Assembly (NCBI GenBank): GCA_947174175.1
Contig: CAMWHW010000013.1
Coordinates: 1-10,546, forward strand
Source: an uncultured Clostridia bacterium
GTDB lineage: Bacteria; Bacillota; Clostridia; Christensenellales; Borkfalkiaceae
DNA length: 10,546 nucleotides
Direction: 5' to 3'
Shown: positions 1 through 10,546 of the stretch, one piece after another
Layout: each line of letters starts with the position of its first letter
Position numbering within the stretch: position 1 is the stretch's first letter
Made by a program: the position numbers and the translations under genes
The notes under the pieces: generated by a model
What the model was told of the DNA's origin: nothing
The model's database searches: none
What the model saw: the letters and a program-made list of their open reading frames with translations, nothing else

Positions 1-36
1 ATTTAGCACTATTTTAAACTTTTTTGTCAAAAAGTA

Positions 37-64
37 TTGAAAACTGAAAAATTCGTGATATAAT
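37..64 (+). promoter_or_regulatory. Strong extended -10 sigma-A promoter for the leader RNA / surface protein
   Basis: The -35 box TTGAAA (37-42) and the perfect -10 box TATAAT (59-64) are separated by 16 bases. TG at 56-57 gives an extended -10 (TGATATAAT). The predicted start is about 70-72, which coincides with the first base of the long inverted repeat at 71-84. That agreement supports both the promoter and the RNA. A 7-bp AT-rich inverted repeat (18-24/29-35) lies just upstream of the -35 box and could be a regulator site, but this is weak. Confidence 0.8.
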
Positions 65-70
65 ATCTAT

Positions 71-268
71 GCTTAAAGATTTGAATATGGAGGAGTCCCT
101 CTTTGACTCTTCCTGATTGTCCGTATTTTTTTATGCGGTTTTTTCCGCATAGATTTTTTTCGGCAAACTTAAAAACTAGATACGAGAATTCCATAAGGCA
201 ATTCGTACCTTTTTTTTCCTGTATTCTAGTTTTTTAGAAAAGTACATACGGAAATCAAATCTTTAAGC
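71..268 (+). ncRNA. Unrecognised structured RNA / long 5' leader closed by a 14-bp end-to-end stem
   Basis: What is seen: bases 71-84 pair perfectly with 255-268 (70/269 can add one more pair), so the RNA's 5' end closes on a segment about 185 bases away. Inside are hairpin 89-97/105-113 (9 bp with one G-U, 7-base loop); helix 120-126/246-252 (7 bp); hairpin 132-138/145-151 (7 bp, loop of six U); and a long arm 171-183/221-234 (13 bp with one bulge) capped by hairpin 186-190/200-204. The helices nest consistently as P1, then a junction. The promoter fires at the P1 edge and a terminator follows at 291-322. There is no convincing open reading frame with a ribosome binding site. I see no T-box sequence, no c-di-GMP-type core, and no signal recognition particle or tmRNA hallmark. 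It could be a free small RNA (6S-like or raiA-motif-like in size and end pairing) or a riboswitch/attenuator for the downstream surface protein. The class is unknown to me. Confidence 0.65.
131..160 (+). terminator. Possible early terminator-like hairpin inside the leader
   Basis: The stem TATGCGG/CCGCATA (132-138/145-151) has a loop of six T and is followed two bases later by seven T (154-160). It has the form of an intrinsic terminator, so some transcripts may end at about 160. It is equally a plausible stable helix of the structured RNA. Confidence 0.35.
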
Positions 269-285
269 AATCGTTGAAGGTACTG

Positions 286-332
286 TTTGCGGGCAACCTT
301 TAACGGTTGCCCTTATTTTTTTAGCCCGCAAA
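286..332 (+). promoter_or_regulatory. Alternative stem competing with the terminator and touching the ribosome binding site
   Basis: TTTGCGGGC (286-294) is perfectly complementary to GCCCGCAAA (324-332). The arm 291-294 is also the base of the terminator stem, so the two pairings exclude each other in part. The right arm contains the first three A of the AAAGGAG ribosome binding site (330-336). In read-through transcripts this stem could therefore lower translation of the surface protein. Because the right arm lies after the T run, it cannot act as a classical antiterminator. Confidence 0.4.
291..322 (+). terminator. Intrinsic terminator between leader RNA and surface protein gene
   Basis: The perfect 8-bp stem GGGCAACC (291-298)/GGTTGCCC (305-312) has a 6-base loop and is followed by TTATTTTTTT (313-322). 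It lies only 21 bases before the ATG at 344, and I see no good promoter between 269 and 330. The surface protein would therefore need read-through of this terminator, which fits attenuation control. Confidence 0.8.
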
Positions 333-343
333 GGAGTTAGTTT

Positions 344-3300
344 ATGAAAATTAAACGTAAAACTTTTGTAGGGGGAATATTAGCAACGCTGTGCGCTTGC
401 ACTGCGCTCATTTTCTGCGCGGTGTTTTTGCCTAAAAATACGGTAAGCGCGGAAGCGGCAGTGCCCACCGTAGCTACGGCAAACAGTTTTACTTATGCGA
501 CAGGTGAAAAAGGGTATTTCAACGTGAGCGGTGCTAGCCCCGGCACGGTACCATATTCGAGTCTGTCGACGAGCCCAGGAAATCTCTATATCAGTTATGA
601 TACGTCTCTTAGCAAATTTACGTTTGGTACGACGAGTAGCAATAGAAACGGTAAAGGTATATACGGAGAGCTTTTGTTAAGCGTAGTCGTGCCTGCGAGG
701 GAGCAATATACAGTAGATTTCGGACTATCATTTTCATCAATGAGGACGGCCACAGTTAGGTCAGGTCTTTCGCTGGAAGTGTTTAATTTCGGTTTTTCCA
801 ATGATACGGTAACTGCGCCGTCTGCGCAAAGTACTAACCTTGCTTTAGCTTACGGGGGAAGCGGCAGCGCATATTCGATATTTTGGAATAATAATGGCTC
901 TTCTGGTTCAGGTACTGGCGTCACCGGCTCTAAGAATGTTACTGGTGTGGTCTATAAAAACGAGAGTGATACAGCTCAGACGTTTACTCAGCATTTTGCA
1001 ATTTGGACAGGGTTAGGCTATGCAGATAGTGGTGAGTATGCTAATCTGTCAGGTAGCTGCACGATAACTCCTACGATAACTGCGGTAGACGTGCTTACCT
1101 TTGACTTGCCGCAGGACTTGACTGCAACGTTCAACGGCAATGATCTTGTGTCTACGCTTGACACACAGATTACGGACGAAAGCTGGTTCTTTGGCAACGC
1201 AATGACTCTCAGCAGCGCGGTCGCTCGTGATATAGGAACCTATACTGTAACTGTATCCTTAAAATCAAGTTTTATAAGTGAAGGAAAAATATGGGATTTA
1301 GGCGGTTCGACAACGGCTGACCCGCAGACTTTTGATCTTACAATAAAGCAGAAAGAGATAAAGTATACGCTTGCCGATACGGTAACGGCAAACCGCGTTT
1401 ACGGAGTAACCGACGTGGGAAAAGCTTACGCCGTATATAGTGATATAGAAACTTCGGACGTGGGCACTACGCACGGACCCGATATTGAATTGACTTACGT
1501 AAGTACGGATACGTACGGTTATAATTCAACTACGGCTCCTACCGAGGCGGGCAAATATAAGGTGACCGTAAAGGATAATAACGCTTCGACGAGCAATTAT
1601 AAAATGGTGTACGACGCGACTTCCGACCATACTTTTACAATCTCGCCGAAGTCGGTAAACAAGCCCGTTGCGGTAGCTGCACTTACATATAACGGAGAGG
1701 CGCAGACATTTACTATCAACAATTACGATTCCGCGGTTATGGACTACGGCGTAACGACGGGCGGAGCGTTTGCGGCAAATGCGCTTCCCGTTGGTATGAC
1801 CAAAGGAACTGCTGTTAAGGACTTCCAAGCGACTGATGCTGGCAAATACGATTTGGAATTTGCCTTAAAGGCAAACACAAGTGGTGTGGTGAGGAATTAC
1901 GTTTGGGACGACAATACCAACGGTGCAATTAAAATTACCTACGAAATATCGCCCAAGACGTTGGAATTCAAATTCAACCCTCCAAACAACGGCACGAGTT
2001 GGCGCATAAAGATCAACGACACGGGCGCATTAAGTTGGGCTTACGTCACTGGCGGAGAACCCGTTACGGTAAGCGGTGTGCAGGAAGAGCCTGCATTGCA
2101 GTATTACTACTATTATCAAAATGACGGCGCAAGTACGCAAAAAGTGCTTGCCGAGGGTGCGGCTCTCAACGTAGAGGACTTGAAGGACGCAATGAATAAG
2201 CGTTCGACGGGCACTTACGTAATAGGTTTGCAGTTTGCAAAGGACGCGAACGACGCGGACTATCCCGTAAACCTTAACTATGAGTTGGGTACTTCGGCGG
2301 AATTATCTACGTTAGAGATTACGGCGGGCGAGGCGAGCATTGACGATTTAAGTCTGTCTTTCAAAGACAGCACTATGGGTGCGAACGACCCGTTGCAGGG
2401 CTTGCCGTTTACGGACACATCCGCGGGCACCGAGAATTTACAATATAAAATCGATTCAAACGGCAACCCCGTTGCGTATTTCCCGCAGCTCGATTTCGAC
2501 GGCTCCATTTTCGAAATAGACGGAACGCCTGCTTATAAGTATGACGACGGCAGTACCCCTTCGTTTACCGGTGGTCTGACCAAAGCGGGCAAGGTAACCG
2601 TTACAGTAAATATCAAAATCAAAGCAAGCGAGCAGGCAACCAACAAAATGCCCGCAAGCTATACGGGCAGCAAGTTTTCAAGCTACACCAAGACGAGCGA
2701 CACAGAAGCAACGGTTACTTTCGAGTACACCATTGACAAAATGGAAGTAGATACTTCCGTATTCAAGTTGCAGTACAGCTACGACCAGAGCAACTGGAAG
2801 GACTTTACGGATAAGAACAACAAGGTGGAGTTTGCCAACGCCAAGATTTACGTACGCATTGACCCGACCAGCCTCGCGCCCGTGACCGCAGGCATAAGCG
2901 TTAAGTTCGGCACGGATACCTATGCAAGCGAAAAGGCAAAGGGTTCGTACACCGCTTCGGCGAACTTCACGCTTACTGACAACGATAACTTTACAATAAA
3001 GGACGCTTCATATAACTGGGAGATAACCAACAAGCAGATTAACGTGACCAACTGGGTGCCCGGTGATTTCAAGATTGACGGCGTGGACCGTATCGGCGAA
3101 ATTATGGTTATCAACGGTCATAAGGCGCTATACGATTCGGGCGTTATCGAATACATCTATTCGTGGAGCGATATGGAAGGACACAGCGGTTCGGGCGTAG
3201 GCGAAACCGAGCTTGCAAACATATTCGCTGTTGCAAGCCCTACCAACAAGGTGACCGTTACGGCTACCGTGCAGTTGAAGGGCGGTATGTCGACTACTTA

Positions 3301-5197
3301 CGATTTGCTTGGCACTTCTTTGACCTCGCAGCCGTTTGCGGTGGGTGACGCCAAGTCAACGGCAACCATAACCAACGCGGGCAGTGCGGAGTACGGCAGT
3401 GTGAACGAGAGCGAATTCGGCGTTAAGGTGGAGGCAGACGGCGAAAACCTGCCCGCAACCAACCCGCTTACGGGTGCGCTGCTTTACGAAGTTTACCTGC
3501 ACGATTACGACGGTCTGAGCGTGGATAATATTTCGGGCGACGGCTACGGCTTGCTTTCGGGCGTGGACTATTCCAAGCTGAACGCTGGCAAGTACGTAAT
3601 AGAAGTGCGTTTGACTGCGGCGGGTTCGCAGGACTACGCGCCCAAGGGTGCGCGCCAGTTGTTCGAAATTACGCCCAAGAAAATTGTCGTTCCGCAGCTT
3701 ACCAAGGATGTCGTTTACAACGGCGATTATATCAGCGTTTCCGATTATCTGGACAGCAACTATAACGCGGATATAATGATTATGCTGAGCGGTTACACCA
3801 ACAAGACCGCGGGTTCATACACCGTAACTTTCAAACTGAACAGCACCAACTATATGTGGGTTGAGCCGACTACGGAAGAGGCGCTAGTAAAGAATTTGTT
3901 TACCAAGGCTGTTCTGTTTGCTGACGGAATAACCATTGACAACGCTGCGCTTACGGCAACTTTGAATTGGACGATTAACAAGATTGTGTTATCAACGGAC
4001 GGCTGGAATCTGAACGGCAAGGAGGGCGCAAGCCTTAACGCGCTGGCGGCGTTCCAATCGATGATTGAAGAGAACGGACTTGACGTTTCTATCGGTTACC
4101 GATACTACGATACCAACGGAAATCTTATCGAAGAACCCGTTTTAAAGGGCGGCGATAAGTACATAGTGGAAGCGTATCTGACGGGTGAGGACGCTGCGAA
4201 CTTCGAGTTTGCGGACGGCACGGATGCGGCGAAGTCCATATCCGCAAGAAAGGACTACACCGTTCCCCAAAGCGGCTTTGCAAAGTTTATGGGCAGCACG
4301 GTAGACTTCCTTAAAGCAAACTGGCTGTGGCTGGTTATAGCGGCAGTGGCTCTGTTGTTACTCATCTTACTTATCTGCTTAATCGTGAGCGCTAAAAAGA
4401 AAAAGCGCAAAAAGGAAGAACTGGAAGAGCAGCGCAGGTTGGAAAAGGAAGAGCGCGAAAAGCAGGAGCGTGAAGAGCGCAGGCGCGAGGAGCGTGAGGA
4501 GCGCAGAATGGAGCGCATGTCTCAGCAGCAAATTCCTCAGATGATGATGCCGCAAATGATGCCACAGATGATGACGCAACAGATGCAAATGCCTCAACAG
4601 CAGTCTATGCCTTCGGGCGGCGGTTCGTCCAACGAGCTTGCCGAACTCAAAGCCGAGGTATCCGCTCTGAGAGCCGCGCAGGAATCTATGAGGGCGGAAC
4701 AGACGGCAAAGGAGCTTGCGGAAATCAAAGCTCTGCACACGGCGGAACAGCAGATTGCCCAGGCAAAGACCGACATGCGCGTCGAAAATCTGACGTCACG
4801 GTTGGGCGGAGAACAGCTTATATCTGGTGGTATAACTGCCGCAACGCTTGTTGAAATGGTTACGGCGGCTATGGAAAAAGTGCTTGACCGCAGGGAAAAA
4901 CCCGCGGCGCAGGCACCTGTCGAAGCCAAGGCGGAGGAGCCTGCAAAGGATACGGCAGCTCCCGTATGCCCTCCCGACGCGGTTATGACTACGGTAACTA
5001 CCACCAAGATAGACACGACCAAAAAGCCCGCACAGCAGACAGCGCAGGCTCAGGCACCTGCCCCCGCAGTGAGGACGGTGGTGCGCAACGTGGTAGCGCC
5101 TATGCCCGTTGACGACGGAAGGGTATTTGACGTGGGCGGCTTCTATACCCCCGCCGACCCTATGGATATCGGTCTGACCGACGAAGAAAATAAGTGA
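344..5197 (+). CDS. Giant MBG/Ig-like repeat surface protein with membrane helix and long cytoplasmic tail
   Basis: This 1617-residue protein has an N-terminal signal peptide: basic MKIKRK, a hydrophobic core to about residue 29, and likely cleavage after A36 or A38. Residues about 45-250 form a glycine/serine-rich beta domain I cannot name. From about 255 to 1310 come roughly ten tandem beta-sandwich units of MBG type, with repeated YNG/YG openings (Y353-G354, Y449-G451, Y1125-G1127), AGKYxV-like strands (A402, A499, A1081, A1156) and unit endings such as FTISPK, YEISPK and FEITPK. One membrane helix spans about 1327-1349, followed by KKKKRKK. The 268-residue cytoplasmic tail has a Glu/Arg/Lys coiled coil (1351-1392), a Met/Gln/Pro stretch (1394-1423), a second coiled coil (about 1431-1485), and an Ala/Pro/Thr linker to the end. 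There is no sortase motif. The ATG at 344 has AAAGGAG at 330-336 with 7-base spacing. The likely role is adhesion or envelope structure; the tail implies an intracellular partner. The precise function is unknown. Confidence 0.85.
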   Translation: MKIKRKTFVGGILATLCACTALIFCAVFLPKNTVSAEAAVPTVATANSFTYATGEKGYFNVSGASPGTVPYSSLSTSPGNLYISYDTSLSKFTFGTTSSNRNGKGIYGELLLSVVVPAREQYTVDFGLSFSSMRTATVRSGLSLEVFNFGFSNDTVTAPSAQSTNLALAYGGSGSAYSIFWNNNGSSGSGTGVTGSKNVTGVVYKNESDTAQTFTQHFAIWTGLGYADSGEYANLSGSCTITPTITAVDVLTFDLPQDLTATFNGNDLVSTLDTQITDESWFFGNAMTLSSAVARDIGTYTVTVSLKSSFISEGKIWDLGGSTTADPQTFDLTIKQKEIKYTLADTVTANRVYGVTDVGKAYAVYSDIETSDVGTTHGPDIELTYVSTDTYGYNSTTAPTEAGKYKVTVKDNNASTSNYKMVYDATSDHTFTISPKSVNKPVAVAALTYNGEAQTFTINNYDSAVMDYGVTTGGAFAANALPVGMTKGTAVKDFQATDAGKYDLEFALKANTSGVVRNYVWDDNTNGAIKITYEISPKTLEFKFNPPNNGTSWRIKINDTGALSWAYVTGGEPVTVSGVQEEPALQYYYYYQNDGASTQKVLAEGAALNVEDLKDAMNKRSTGTYVIGLQFAKDANDADYPVNLNYELGTSAELSTLEITAGEASIDDLSLSFKDSTMGANDPLQGLPFTDTSAGTENLQYKIDSNGNPVAYFPQLDFDGSIFEIDGTPAYKYDDGSTPSFTGGLTKAGKVTVTVNIKIKASEQATNKMPASYTGSKFSSYTKTSDTEATVTFEYTIDKMEVDTSVFKLQYSYDQSNWKDFTDKNNKVEFANAKIYVRIDPTSLAPVTAGISVKFGTDTYASEKAKGSYTASANFTLTDNDNFTIKDASYNWEITNKQINVTNWVPGDFKIDGVDRIGEIMVINGHKALYDSGVIEYIYSWSDMEGHSGSGVGETELANIFAVASPTNKVTVTATVQLKGGMSTTYDLLGTSLTSQPFAVGDAKSTATITNAGSAEYGSVNESEFGVKVEADGENLPATNPLTGALLYEVYLHDYDGLSVDNISGDGYGLLSGVDYSKLNAGKYVIEVRLTAAGSQDYAPKGARQLFEITPKKIVVPQLTKDVVYNGDYISVSDYLDSNYNADIMIMLSGYTNKTAGSYTVTFKLNSTNYMWVEPTTEEALVKNLFTKAVLFADGITIDNAALTATLNWTINKIVLSTDGWNLNGKEGASLNALAAFQSMIEENGLDVSIGYRYYDTNGNLIEEPVLKGGDKYIVEAYLTGEDAANFEFADGTDAAKSISARKDYTVPQSGFAKFMGSTVDFLKANWLWLVIAAVALLLLILLICLIVSAKKKKRKKEELEEQRRLEKEEREKQEREERRREEREERRMERMSQQQIPQMMMPQMMPQMMTQQMQMPQQQSMPSGGGSSNELAELKAEVSALRAAQESMRAEQTAKELAEIKALHTAEQQIAQAKTDMRVENLTSRLGGEQLISGGITAATLVEMVTAAMEKVLDRREKPAAQAPVEAKAEEPAKDTAAPVCPPDAVMTTVTTTKIDTTKKPAQQTAQAQAPAPAVRTVVRNVVAPMPVDDGRVFDVGGFYTPADPMDIGLTDEENK

Positions 5198-6438: not shown

Positions 6439-8478
6439 ATGATTAACAGACAAGCCCTTTTCACTGACGAAACCCTGACCTTTAAAACCCCTTACGAGCC
6501 GTCGGCGGGCGACAAGGTAACGCTTACCTTCCGCACTTTGGAAAACGACGTCCTTAAAGTATACGCCTTTATAAACGGCAAAATGCGCGTTATGAAGAAG
6601 CTTCCCAAAAGGATAGAAAGCTTCGACTTTTATACGCTGACCTTTACCTGCGGCACCAAACCCGTAAGCTACTTTTTCAAGCTGGTGGACGAGGACGACG
6701 AGATTTATTACAACCGCCTCGGTCCGGTCACCAACAACCAGGAGGAGTACAACTTTTCCTTTATGCCCGGGGTGAAGGTGCCCGACTGGGCCAAGGGCAG
6801 AGTGTTCTACCAGATATACTGCGACCGTTTCTGCAACGGCGACCCTTCCAACGACGTGCAGTATAACGAATACTATTATACGGGCGGACACGTAAGGAAG
6901 ATTGAAGACTGGTACAAAACTCCCGACGCGCTGGACGTCAACAACTTTTACGGCGGCGACTTGCAAGGCGTGGAGCAAAAGCTTGACTATTTAAAGGAAC
7001 TGGGCGTGGAGGCGGTGTATTTCAATCCGCTGTTCGTATCGCCCTCCAACCATAAATACGATACTCAGGACTACGACTATATAGACCCGCACCTTGCCGT
7101 TATCGAAAACGATTACGACCACTATATGCAGGGGTGGGAAAAGCATAACGGCTACGCGCCTAAGTATATACGCAGGGTAACCGACAAAACCAACCTGGAA
7201 AAGTCAAATCAGTACTTTGCCAAGCTCGTCGAAAAGATGCACGCAATGGATATAAAAGTCGTGGTGGACGGCGTGTTCAACCACTGCGGTTCCTTCCACA
7301 AATGGCTGGACAGAGAGGGCATATACCTCGATAAAAAGGGTTACGAAAAGGGAGCGTTTCAGTCGCTGGAAAGCCCCTACCGCAGTTACTTCAAATTCAA
7401 TAAGCCGCGCAAGGTCGACAGCGAATACGAGGGCTGGTGGGGCTATAAGACCCTGCCCAAGCTCAACTACGAAAAGAGCGGGGAGCTGTGCGAAAGCATT
7501 TACGGAGTGGGCGCAAAGTGGGTGTCCGCACCCTTTAACGCCGACGGCTGGCGTCTGGACGTTGCCGCCGATTTAGGACACAGTGAAAGGTTCAACCACA
7601 AATTCTGGAAGACGTTCAAAGAGCGCGTAAGAAAGGCCAATCCCGAAGCGTTCGTGTTTGCCGAACACTACGGCGACCCCGAAAAATGGCTGTTCGGCGG
7701 CGAGTGGGATTCGGTAATGAATTATGACGCGTTTATGGAGCCGGTAACCTGGTTTCTGACCGGTATGGAAAAGCACTCGGGCGCGATTGATTACGGCAAG
7801 CTTTACGACGGCAAGGCGTTTTTCGATTCAATGTTAAAGAACGGCGCGCGCCTGCCCCGACCCGCTTTGGACAGTGCAATAAACCAGCTTTCCAATCACG
7901 ACCATTCGCGCTTTTTAACGCGCACCAACCGCAAGGTGGGCACGCTCAAATCTATGGGCGGGGAAGCCGCGGGCGAGGATATCGACAAGCGGGTACTGTA
8001 TCTGGGCGTACTCATTCAGATGACCTGGACGGGCAGCCCCGCATTATACTACGGCGACGAGGTAGGGCAGGTGGGCTGGACGGACCCCGACAGCCGCAGG
8101 ACGTACCCCTGGGGCAGAGAGGACTGGGAAACTTACGACGTTCACAAGAGCGCCATTGCCCTCCGCAAAAAAATTCACTGTCTGAAAATGGGTTCTTTAA
8201 TGCCTCTGGACGCGGGCAACGGCTATATAGTCTACGCGCGTTTCGACAAGGAGGACTGCGCCATAGTCGCAATAAATTGCAGCGACAAAAACATTTCGCT
8301 CAGCGTTCCCGTATGGACGCTTACGGGCAAGCGCACGGATACGCTTAAACTTGCCTATACCGTCAATGCGGAGGCGGACGCTTTTGCCGAGGACGCGCAA
8401 GTCAAGTTCGGCAGAACGGTAATGACCTTGCCGCCTAAGTCGGGTTGCGTTTACACTAAGAAATTTAATTTGGAATAA
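6439..8478 (+). CDS. GH13 neopullulanase/cyclomaltodextrinase-type alpha-glucan hydrolase
   Basis: This 679-residue cytoplasmic enzyme (no signal peptide) probably hydrolyses alpha-1,4 bonds in maltodextrins, cyclodextrins or pullulan-type glucans. Residues about 1-115 form a CBM34-like beta domain, followed by the entry motif VFYQIYCDRF and the GH13 barrel. Catalytic regions visible: DGVFNH (D277-H282); GWRLD with nucleophile D374 and R372; FAEH with acid/base E409; SNHD with transition-state D488; and GSPALYYGDEVG (532-543). Region V reads LPKLN (339-343), close to the MPKLN signature of the neopullulanase subgroup (GH13_20) rather than the QPDLN of oligo-1,6-glucosidases. A beta-sandwich C domain ends the protein. 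An insertion of about 35 residues lies between IDPH (about 215) and region I; from memory, clostridial homologues share it. The start at 6439 fits the expected beginning of the CBM34 fold, though the ribosome binding site is weak. The gene is probably co-transcribed with glgB. The exact substrate cannot be told from sequence alone. Confidence 0.9.
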   Translation: MINRQALFTDETLTFKTPYEPSAGDKVTLTFRTLENDVLKVYAFINGKMRVMKKLPKRIESFDFYTLTFTCGTKPVSYFFKLVDEDDEIYYNRLGPVTNNQEEYNFSFMPGVKVPDWAKGRVFYQIYCDRFCNGDPSNDVQYNEYYYTGGHVRKIEDWYKTPDALDVNNFYGGDLQGVEQKLDYLKELGVEAVYFNPLFVSPSNHKYDTQDYDYIDPHLAVIENDYDHYMQGWEKHNGYAPKYIRRVTDKTNLEKSNQYFAKLVEKMHAMDIKVVVDGVFNHCGSFHKWLDREGIYLDKKGYEKGAFQSLESPYRSYFKFNKPRKVDSEYEGWWGYKTLPKLNYEKSGELCESIYGVGAKWVSAPFNADGWRLDVAADLGHSERFNHKFWKTFKERVRKANPEAFVFAEHYGDPEKWLFGGEWDSVMNYDAFMEPVTWFLTGMEKHSGAIDYGKLYDGKAFFDSMLKNGARLPRPALDSAINQLSNHDHSRFLTRTNRKVGTLKSMGGEAAGEDIDKRVLYLGVLIQMTWTGSPALYYGDEVGQVGWTDPDSRRTYPWGREDWETYDVHKSAIALRKKIHCLKMGSLMPLDAGNGYIVYARFDKEDCAIVAINCSDKNISLSVPVWTLTGKRTDTLKLAYTVNAEADAFAEDAQVKFGRTVMTLPPKSGCVYTKKFNLE

Positions 8479-8479
8479 A

Positions 8480-8524
8480 AAAACGTAGCAAGCAAAACCA
8501 CGCTTTTGCGAGAATCTACGTTTT
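8480..8524 (+). promoter_or_regulatory. Nested hairpin in the hydrolase-glgB gap, abutting the glgB ribosome binding site
   Basis: AAAACGTAG (8480-8488) is a perfect inverted repeat of CTACGTTTT (8516-8524). An inner stem GCAAAA/TTTTGC (8492-8497/8504-8509) is nested inside. The hairpin begins right after the hydrolase stop codon, and its last base touches the GGGGGA ribosome binding site (8525-8530), seven bases from the glgB start. The T run is inside the stem, so it is not a clean terminator. It may tune mRNA stability, partial termination or glgB translation. Confidence 0.55.
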
Positions 8525-8537
8525 GGGGGAAATATAT

Positions 8538-10546
8538 ATGGATAAGGAAAAAAGATTTTTCGGTGAGCTGGACAGATATCTGTTTCACCACGGCACGCAC
8601 TACGAGCTGTATGAAAAGATGGGCGCGCATATACGCTGTATCGACGGCGTATGGGGCACTCACTTCGTAGTGTGGGCGCCCAACGCGCGCGCTATCTGCG
8701 TGGTGTCGGACGGCAACGGCTGGACCCCGTGGCGCGATATAATGGAAAAGGTGGACGACAGCATTTGGGAGCTTTTCGTGCCCGGTATGTGCGAGGGAGT
8801 TAAATATAAATACCTGGTCGTGCGCGCCGACGGAAGCGAGGTCTACAAAATCGACCCCTACGAATTCGGCAGCGAAAAGCGCCCCGCTAACGCTTCGGTA
8901 GTCACCAACCTCAACGACTACCAGTGGGGCGACGGCGAATATATGAAGGCCAAGAAAGGTGAAAACTACCTTGAAAAGCCCATGGCGGTTTACGAGGTGC
9001 ACCTTGGCAGCTGGAAGAAAAACACCGAAATGTGGTGGGACGAGGACCAGTTTTTAGACTACCGCCGCCTCGCGCACGAGCTGTGCGAATACGTTCAGTT
9101 TATGGGCTATACCCACGTGGAAGTTATGGGTATATGCGAATATCCCTTCGACCCCAGCTGGGGCTATCAGGTAACGGGCTACTTCTGCCCGACTGCGCGC
9201 TACGGTTCGCCGCAGGACTTTATGTACTTCGTTGACTACCTGCACCAGCACGGCATAGGCGTAATTTTAGACTGGGTGCCCGCGCATTTTCCCAAGGACG
9301 AATTCGGACTTGCCAACTTCGACGGCACTCCGCTTTACGAATACGGCGACCCCCTGCGCGCCGAATATCCCGAGTGGGGCACCAAGGCGTTCGACTTGGG
9401 CAGACCCGAAGTTTCCAACTTCCTAATCGCCTCGGCGTTCTTCTGGGTCAATAAATATCATATCGACGCGCTGCGCTCGGACGCGGTTGCGGCAATGCTC
9501 TATTCTTCGTTCGGCAGAACGGAGTGGCGCCCCAACAAGGACGGCGGCGACTGGAACCTGGAAAGCTTCGAATTCTTCCGTCACCTCAACAGCGTGTTGA
9601 GAAGCCGCACCGACGCGTTCATTATCGCGGAGGACAGCTCGATTATAAACGGCATAACCGCACCCGCAAAGGAGGGCGGTCTCGGCTTCGGCTTGAAGTG
9701 GAATATGGGCTGGATGAACGATACTCTTTCTTACATAAAGAAAGACCCCGTTTACCGCAAATATCACCACTTCCTGATGACGCACACCTTCGAGTACATT
9801 TTTAACGAGCACTATCAGCTTGTGCTTTCGCACGACGAGGTTGTGTACGGCAAGGGCAGTATGTACACAAAGATGCCCGGATATCACGCGGACAAACTCA
9901 ACGGCTTGAAATGCTTCTACACGATGATGATGGGTCACCCCGGCAAGAAGCTGCTGTTCATGGGTCAGGACTTCGCGCAGATAAACGAGTGGTACTACAA
10001 GGTCAGCCTGGACTGGCATCTGTGCGACGACCCCGGTCACAGAAGCGTTATGGAGTGCTACCGCGCGCTGCTTCACTTATATAAGGAAAGACCCGTTCTG
10101 CACAACGATACCAACAGCCAGTCGTTCGAGTGGATAGAAAGCGGCGACGTTCAGCGTTCCATATTCGCGTTCATCCGCCGCAACCCCTGGAACTATAACG
10201 ACGGTCTGGTATTCGTCTGCAATATGACCCCTATGACGTATGAAAACTACGGCGTGGGCGCGCCCGTTTCGGGCAAATACAAGCGCGTGTTCTCGACCTG
10301 CTACGACGAGGAAGAAATGGTAGTCAAGGCGGAAAAGGAGCTTTGCAACGGCAGACCTTACAAGCTCACGTTTACGTTGAAACCTTACGAAGCAATCATT
10401 TTTGAAATTCCATTCCACGAGAGCACGGAGGAGGAGAAAAAGAAGGAGAAGGCGGAAAAGAGCCGCGTGGACAAGGCGCACAAGGAAGCCAAGAGCGACT
10501 TATCGCATGTTCCGCAGGTTGCCGCACCCGAAAAGGCGGCAAAGAC
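8538..10546 (+). CDS. glgB: 1,4-alpha-glucan branching enzyme GlgB (incomplete at the right edge)
   Basis: The open frame runs 669 codons from ATG 8538 (GGGGGA at 8525-8530) to the window end with no stop. GlgB cuts alpha-1,4-glucan chains and re-joins them as alpha-1,6 branches during cytoplasmic glycogen synthesis. Seen in order: an N-terminal CBM48 domain (about 20-125, GTHFVVWAPNA); region I DWVPAHFP (D245, H250); region II DALRSD (R313, nucleophile D315); region III IIAED (acid/base E365); region IV SHDEVVYGK (H432, D433); KLLFMGQDFAQ; and a C-terminal beta domain ending near residue 625. The catalytic residues match E. coli D335, H340, R403, D405, E458, H525 and D526, so the enzyme should be active. 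It lacks the extra N-terminal N1 domain of the E. coli type. Oddities are Ser before the nucleophile (Val in E. coli) and a Glu/Lys/Ala-rich extension from about residue 628 onward. Confidence 0.93.
   Translation, partial: MDKEKRFFGELDRYLFHHGTHYELYEKMGAHIRCIDGVWGTHFVVWAPNARAICVVSDGNGWTPWRDIMEKVDDSIWELFVPGMCEGVKYKYLVVRADGSEVYKIDPYEFGSEKRPANASVVTNLNDYQWGDGEYMKAKKGENYLEKPMAVYEVHLGSWKKNTEMWWDEDQFLDYRRLAHELCEYVQFMGYTHVEVMGICEYPFDPSWGYQVTGYFCPTARYGSPQDFMYFVDYLHQHGIGVILDWVPAHFPKDEFGLANFDGTPLYEYGDPLRAEYPEWGTKAFDLGRPEVSNFLIASAFFWVNKYHIDALRSDAVAAMLYSSFGRTEWRPNKDGGDWNLESFEFFRHLNSVLRSRTDAFIIAEDSSIINGITAPAKEGGLGFGLKWNMGWMNDTLSYIKKDPVYRKYHHFLMTHTFEYIFNEHYQLVLSHDEVVYGKGSMYTKMPGYHADKLNGLKCFYTMMMGHPGKKLLFMGQDFAQINEWYYKVSLDWHLCDDPGHRSVMECYRALLHLYKERPVLHNDTNSQSFEWIESGDVQRSIFAFIRRNPWNYNDGLVFVCNMTPMTYENYGVGAPVSGKYKRVFSTCYDEEEMVVKAEKELCNGRPYKLTFTLKPYEAIIFEIPFHESTEEEKKKEKAEKSRVDKAHKEAKSDLSHVPQVAAPEKAAK

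Follow-up and report, generated by a model that had tools for sequence, protein, structure and literature searches.

A candidate riboswitch-type transcription attenuator ahead of envelope protein genes in Clostridia

What kind of RNA precedes the giant surface protein gene at the start of contig CAMWHW010000013.1, from an uncultured Clostridia bacterium (Borkfalkiaceae), and what does it do? The window (the whole stretch of DNA analysed, 10,546 nt) had been read in an earlier note as carrying a structured RNA with an end-to-end closing stem ahead of such a gene, and this description held, the leader being followed by a gene for a protein of 1617 aa. The elements of the leader are, in window coordinates:

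37-42, + strand: -35 box TTGAAA of the predicted promoter, with a spacer of 16 to the -10 box
59-64, + strand: extended -10 box, hexamer TATAAT with upstream TG, of the predicted promoter (37..64; 11 of 12 matches)
70-84, + strand: 5' strand of P1, pairing with 255-269; predicted transcription start at the first P1 bases
89-113, + strand: insert hairpin in the minimum free energy (MFE) fold
120-126, + strand: 5' strand of an insert helix, pairing with 246-252 in the MFE fold
130-153, + strand: insert hairpin in the MFE fold, terminator-like by pattern too
171-234, + strand: P2/P3 arm with conserved apical loop in the MFE fold; a comparable arm occurs in relatives
197-200, + strand: GGCA of the apical loop motif, read from the sequence
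205-211, + strand: GUACCUU, the P3 3' strand plus toehold, putative pseudoknot partner of 277-283
246-252, + strand: 3' strand of the insert helix, pairing with 120-126 in the MFE fold
255-269, + strand: 3' strand of P1, pairing with 70-84
269-281, + strand: post-P1 switching segment, putative antiterminator 5' strand, 13 pairs with 296-308
277-283, + strand: AAGGUAC, pseudoknot strand, complementary to 205-211 and overlapping the antiterminator strand
286-294, + strand: UUUGCGGGC, able to pair with 324-332 after read-through; GGGC in common with the terminator
291-322, + strand: intrinsic terminator, stem 291-298/305-312, U-rich tail to 322
324-336, + strand: post-terminator complement (324-332) running into Shine-Dalgarno AAGGAG (331-336), read from the sequence
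344..5197, + strand: downstream gene, ATG at 344, 1617-aa protein with signal-like N-terminus

The strong extended -10 promoter and the start near position 71 that the earlier note had proposed were recovered by prediction, and its perfect 14-base complementarity between 71-84 and 255-268 proved to be a 15-bp perfect helix, T70-A269 adding one pair. When 1-343 was dinucleotide-shuffled 300 times, a perfect helix of 14 bp arose once and one of 15 bp never. The region 71-325 folds with z = -7.23, with 0 of 200 shuffles equally stable; the MFE fold joins 84-86 to 116-118 and contains 13 P1 pairs, as against 14 in the centroid. The nested helices named beforehand (89-113, 120-126/246-252, 130-153 and the arm at about 171-234) all appear in the MFE fold, and the terminator at 291-322 was found with its stem (291-312) and U tract. 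The note left out what is likely the functional core of the RNA, namely the pseudoknot 205-211/277-283, the antiterminator 269-281/296-308 and the pairing 286-294/324-332.

The view that the RNA could be assigned to no known class was borne out by Rfam 15, which gave no match over the gathering threshold for the window or for 36 related loci. Window positions 1-1200 (E <= 10) returned nothing above that threshold, 18 related loci searched at gathering level returned four tRNAs only, and 18 further loci (E <= 1) nothing over threshold except one tRNA. The scores in the window for LhrC (E 0.39), FuFi-1 (0.076, other strand), DUF3800-I (5.7) and the L20 leader (1.5) lie far under gathering and reflect weak local likeness only. 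In the available portions of the literature searched, PMC8040213, PMC11109978, PMC8632094 and PMC2965389 included, no description of the motif was found; PMC8040213 reports 3161 candidates, and its supplementary list may contain unnamed members of the family. From sequence comparison, the RNA apparently represents a new family of a known kind, transcription attenuator or candidate riboswitch.

The window RNA likely belongs to a large, seemingly undescribed Clostridia family of RNA switches. When its own genome was searched at the DNA level together with 60 relatives, the matches were partial and almost all came from the same genus; read individually, many of them had an identical layout with differing stem sequences. 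Covariance models were built of the 3' part from 15 sequences (R1) and of the full length from 8 compact members (R2) or from 62 (R3), and nhmmer gave 173 hits, of which 154 had E < 1e-3, leaving 126 distinct instances after duplicate removal. In the genus sample R1 was detected in at least 32 of 61 genomes (E <= 0.01) and in the family sample in at least 34 of 201 (E <= 1e-4). R3 was detected in at least 79 of the 396 genomes, and 32 of the 142 genera, sampled in the order, where R1, matching only 17 genomes, overlooks most of the spread. At class level R3 was found in at least 39 of 291 sampled genomes (28 of 180 genera), 35 of which belong to other orders than the window's. The phylum samples yielded no match beyond the genome of the window itself (R1, 1 of 398; R3, 1 of 129). 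These genome counts are lower bounds because the filters were strict and few candidates were scored per genome. A pattern scan of named genomes returned at least 119 stretches; among 80 listed stretches with titles, 39 were R2-positive (E <= 1e-4), 38 of them titled uncultured Clostridia and one uncultured Firmicutes. None of the listed stretches titled as other phyla matched R2, nor did four listed under Ruminococcus or Clostridiales, and 19 of the other 39 listed genome stretches were R2-positive; the pattern scan serves as a control of specificity. Where most of the hosts are uncultured, sizeable cis-regulatory RNA families can be absent from Rfam.

Conservation of the helices with compensatory change in homologous leaders, on which the earlier note had made its reading depend, was evident in an alignment of 62 sequences from 60 selected loci (A4), from which some low-scoring antisense matches of a wider run on 78 sources had been left out. 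Of 33 pairs, 30 show changes on both sides, and 310 cells carry such changes where shuffles give 89 +- 9; the changes affect 12 of 12 modelled P1 pairs, and the terminator pairs (helix 5) covary too. Overall 95.0% of the A4 cells pair, as against 35-53% with the partners slid, a figure favoured by the fitting of A4 to the model's structure, so that independent tests matter. P1 was parsed in 123 of the 126 instances, the remaining three having less than 120 nt upstream. With fixed anchors (the -10 box and the start of the R1-type hit), the best of 99 offset pairs brings 81% of 12 P1 positions into pairing in 112 instances, compared with a median of 42%. Own P1 duplexes have a predicted energy of -25.2 kcal/mol, against -15.6 kcal/mol with swapped partners, and fall under the 1st percentile of the swaps in 53 of 123 instances and under the 5th in 101. 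In 112 of 123 instances a -10 box (at least 5 of 6) lies 2-13 nt from the first base of P1, compared with 17.5% at random positions, and in 105 it lies 3-7 nt upstream of that base, so that the start of the transcript at the closing stem, predicted beforehand for the window, recurs as a feature of the family. At the level of sequence these comparisons demonstrate P1, P2, P3, the terminator and the -10 relation, and P1 to P3 form a conserved folded domain supported by covariation, as is looked for in a riboswitch.

The family RNA is about 140-160 nt long. In compact members the -10 box is followed by P1, which begins with the transcript, a junction with a conserved AUA, P2, an asymmetric internal loop and P3 with the loop GGCAUA or similar; the 3' side of P3 carries UGUAYCC and leads through a U-rich stretch to the end of P2 and the P1 3' strand, after which come a switching segment such as CAAUAUGGGAUACUC and then UGCGGGC with the terminator. 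A second subtype has P1 UACCACA...UGUGGUA, the loop GGCAUUGUGUAUCUC and the segment GAGAUAC, and members in other orders of the class have mostly GGUAAAAG- or GGCAAAGG-like loops. The apical loop motif was recognised by pattern in 109 of the 126 instances, the 17 misses including several with AGCA or similar loops and four lacking a parsed element. The window RNA looks like an expanded member with three additional helices, since 89-113, 120-126/246-252 and 130-153 have no counterpart in compact relatives and thus resemble inserts between P1 and the P2/P3 arm; TCCGTA...ACGGA stretches like those of window 120-126/246-252 occur in L013 and L002, as sequence likeness only. The covariance models align the window in part (R2, 231-321, E 0.004; R3, 165-321, E 1e-4), and the support for P1 in the window is therefore its direct pairing together with the same-genus relatives.

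How might such an RNA act on the gene behind it? The terminator and the antiterminator were parsed in 125 of the 126 instances, and the post-P1 segment forms on average 10.7 pairs with its own terminator 5' arm and loop (one mismatch allowed), compared with 7.8 for swapped and 7.0 for shuffled partners; covariants such as CAAUAUGG/CCAUAUUG, CAAUACGG/CCGUAUUG and CUAUCAAGG/CCUUGAUAG were found. The same segment is complementary to the 3' strand of P3, with 7.4 pairs in 109 instances against 4.6 for shuffled and 6.4 for swapped partners, the separation from the swaps being weak because the sequence is partly conserved. Covariation of this pseudoknot involves few pair types (GUAUCCU/GGGAUAC, GUAUCUCU/AGAGAUAC and AGUACCU/GGGUACU). 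In 105 of 109 instances the two strands have 3 nt or more in common, and hence both pairings cannot form in full. Antiterminator pairing, pseudoknot complementarity and their overlap are in this way documented across the family, and mutually exclusive expression-platform structures, as in a riboswitch, are predicted from complementarity and covariation. In 25 distant members (17 class-level loci and 8 of 15 viral loci, L358 being badly parsed) the pseudoknot has 10.6 pairs against 8.4 in shuffles and the antiterminator 9.9 against 7.8, an average excess of about 2, and the distant member L343 has a pseudoknot match of 19 pairs with one mismatch.

Predicted energies across the family are -16.6 kcal/mol for the antiterminator, -15.6 for the terminator, -10.7 for the pseudoknot and -6.0 for P3, and in the window -18.2, -14.5, -10.6 and -4.5 kcal/mol, respectively; the terminator is stronger in 30 of 109 instances, and in 105 of 109 the pseudoknot is more stable than P3. 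By these calculated values the balance among the four is poised. In addition, the 5' flank of the terminator has a complement of at least 6 Watson-Crick pairs past the U tract in 77 of 125 instances, compared with 21 of 1250 with shuffled downstream sequence, and this complement often runs into the Shine-Dalgarno sequence. After read-through, pairing of the 286-294/324-332 type may keep the terminator arm open or else affect translation.

An intrinsic terminator before a same-strand gene, faced by a competing antiterminator, is the arrangement of an attenuator, and an ORF on the same strand with a Shine-Dalgarno sequence follows within 150 nt in 115 of the 126 instances; the competing antiterminator, the pseudoknot and these ORFs together point to a cis-acting attenuator or riboswitch. 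We therefore favour, with a probability of about three in four, a cis-acting transcription attenuator of the riboswitch type, forming a new family absent from Rfam 15 and widespread in the window's class. Transcription would start at the first bases of P1, which would close a domain whose P2/P3 arm displays the conserved GGCA-type loop, and the segment after P1 would choose between two mutually exclusive partners. Were it to invade P3 and pair with the 3' strand and toehold (pseudoknot), the terminator would form and transcription stop; were P3 to stay closed, the segment would pair with the terminator 5' arm and loop (antiterminator) and the surface protein gene would be transcribed. The pairings presumably form in the cell, with P3 first, then the segment after P1, and the antiterminator partner last. 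As the segment would find its pseudoknot partner already transcribed, the terminated state would be the default. The balance might be set at the P3 loop and the P1/P2 junction by an effector, be it a small molecule, an ion or a protein; as a first guess this effector would stabilise P3 and act as an ON switch, the reverse being about equally probable. The pseudoknot state would demand a sharp bend at the P1/P2 junction for the segment to reach P3, and the expected OFF product is a terminated RNA of about 250 nt.

An RNA of that size, ending near 322, could also be imagined as a free small RNA acting in trans, the downstream gene being reached by leaky read-through; the RNA has its own predicted promoter and terminator and a stable fold, but the nearby same-strand ORFs, a covarying antiterminator, for which a plain small RNA would have no use, and the occurrence of as many as 12 divergent copies within a single genome make this improbable. 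Where the earlier note had spoken of a small-RNA or riboswitch unit, it is thus the cis-acting side that stands, a free small RNA being less likely as the main function. Control by a ribosome translating a leader peptide is more improbable still: the window leader does contain a 44-codon open stretch from TTG behind a GGAGG-like sequence, yet such ORFs occur in 34 of 123 instances and equally in 34 of 123 shuffled leaders. Leader-peptide attenuation was rejected on this lack of enrichment, no conserved short leader ORF having been found in the family.

The favoured attenuator, which is probably a riboswitch controlling envelope proteins, resembles terminator-type riboswitches in its start-proximal folded domain, in an antiterminator strand shared between domain and terminator and in its same-strand target; it differs from them in that the sharing takes the form of strand exchange in a pseudoknot outside P1, and no Rfam class matches it. 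T-box leaders are Firmicute leaders with alternative terminator and antiterminator. Here, unlike in T-boxes, the antiterminator is the post-P1 segment and the targets are mostly envelope proteins rather than amino-acid genes; T-boxes were rejected, as the window and the 36 loci had no Rfam T-box match.

Which genes, then, lie behind the RNA? By N-terminal patterns devised for this analysis, the raw counts among the 126 instances were 62 lipobox proteins, 19 zinc-ribbon proteins, 9 MKIKRKTF surface proteins and 25 others, with 5 distant ORFs and 6 instances without an ORF. A Pfam scan of 97 downstream proteins (150 aa or longer, with the ORF no more than 150 nt away; their carrier, A5, is not a homologous alignment) identified 27 with BspA-type leucine-rich repeats (LRR_5) and 13 with zinc ribbons, and two LytTR regulators and one ABC transporter are among the targets. 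In L163 an instance of the RNA lies ahead of an S-adenosylmethionine synthetase gene. The presence of several copies per genome before non-homologous envelope genes suggests that one signal sets the surface of many uncultured Clostridia.

Such diverse, regulon-like targets would also suit protein-dependent antitermination, in which a sequence-specific RNA-binding protein holds P3 closed through the GGCA-type loop of the same anatomy, and so would a short conserved loop on a hairpin and a P1 whose sequence varies freely. Conserved positions outside the hairpin, namely the AUA of the P1/P2 junction and the UAUCC stretch with the U-rich 3' side, argue against it, and we consider this explanation unlikely, though well worth keeping in view. 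The c-di-GMP riboswitches GEMM-I and c-di-GMP-II are Clostridial leaders for surface and adhesion genes. Surface proteins being a typical target set of that signal in Clostridia, a c-di-GMP riboswitch of a new kind was considered and rejected as having scarcely any probability: despite the similar target genes, the window and the 36 loci have no match to the known c-di-GMP classes in Rfam, and no GGDEF match was found in 14 of 27 same-genus carrier genomes (RNA at E <= 1e-4), 12 of these 14 being listed as at least 91% complete.

In several genomes two complete units of the RNA stand in series before one gene, as in L121 (1297-1443 and 1501-1644), L066 (1252-1400 and 1501-1647), L213 (3807-3952 and 4009-4151) and L290 (2189-2331 and 2385-2529). 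In all four a GUACCC subtype leads and is followed by one of GUAUCUC or GUAUCUU type, both units having a terminator and a predicted promoter of their own. Further tandem pairs occur in L158 and L074. Such tandems suggest different inputs or promoters serving one gene. A bolder version of the reading, in which a class-wide new riboswitch of Clostridia, many of them from gut samples, senses a signal and sets the surface proteome (lipoproteins, BspA-type leucine-rich-repeat proteins, giant surface proteins and zinc-ribbon proteins) by three-way strand exchange, with subtypes that differ in their loops and with tandem subtypes acting as a two-input RNA switch in several genomes, is held tentatively, as falling a little short of an even chance. 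With a defined RNA of some 140-160 nt, a switching model open to testing and a list of target genes, the family brings the ligand question within direct reach.

Viral contigs were scanned with four patterns. The first gave 15 stretches, 0 of them R2-positive at E <= 1e-4, the type-2 and third patterns gave 0 stretches each, and the fourth gave 15 (L360-L374), all R3-positive and several near-identical. The sequences of L360-L374 come from viral-contig records and are either phage or flanking host DNA, and their downstream proteins are small and without assignment, one being PASTA-like by eye only. A distant member of 161 nt had no blastn match in phage or plasmid collections.

Two groups of downstream proteins share their N-termini. 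One type, with an N-terminal LYALRAGLSVIS, occurs behind the RNA in more than one taxonomic family; proteins with an N-terminal LY[AT][LI]RAG[LM]S follow the RNA at L058:167-1480, L128:76-846, L330:1668-2198 and L331:253-1515, the four of them that were scanned having no Pfam family over cut-off, and L003 has a similar start behind the RNA. Most pairs within the MKIKRKTF group share about 56-96% identity over the first 28-54 residues, and longer alignments show 26-37% identity or are absent. A cassette of leader and signal peptide is common to window 344-480, L002, L006, L007, L109, L134, L146, L149 and L150; the rest of these surface proteins is divergent or unalignable, as though cassettes had been shuffled. 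The 1617-aa protein of the window has no Pfam family over cut-off and a weak GG_III-CTERM match at 1329-1356, below cut-off. Further along the window lie an alpha-amylase family gene (6439-8478, maltodextrin glucosidase-like) and a GlgB branching-enzyme gene (8523-10544) cut by the window end.
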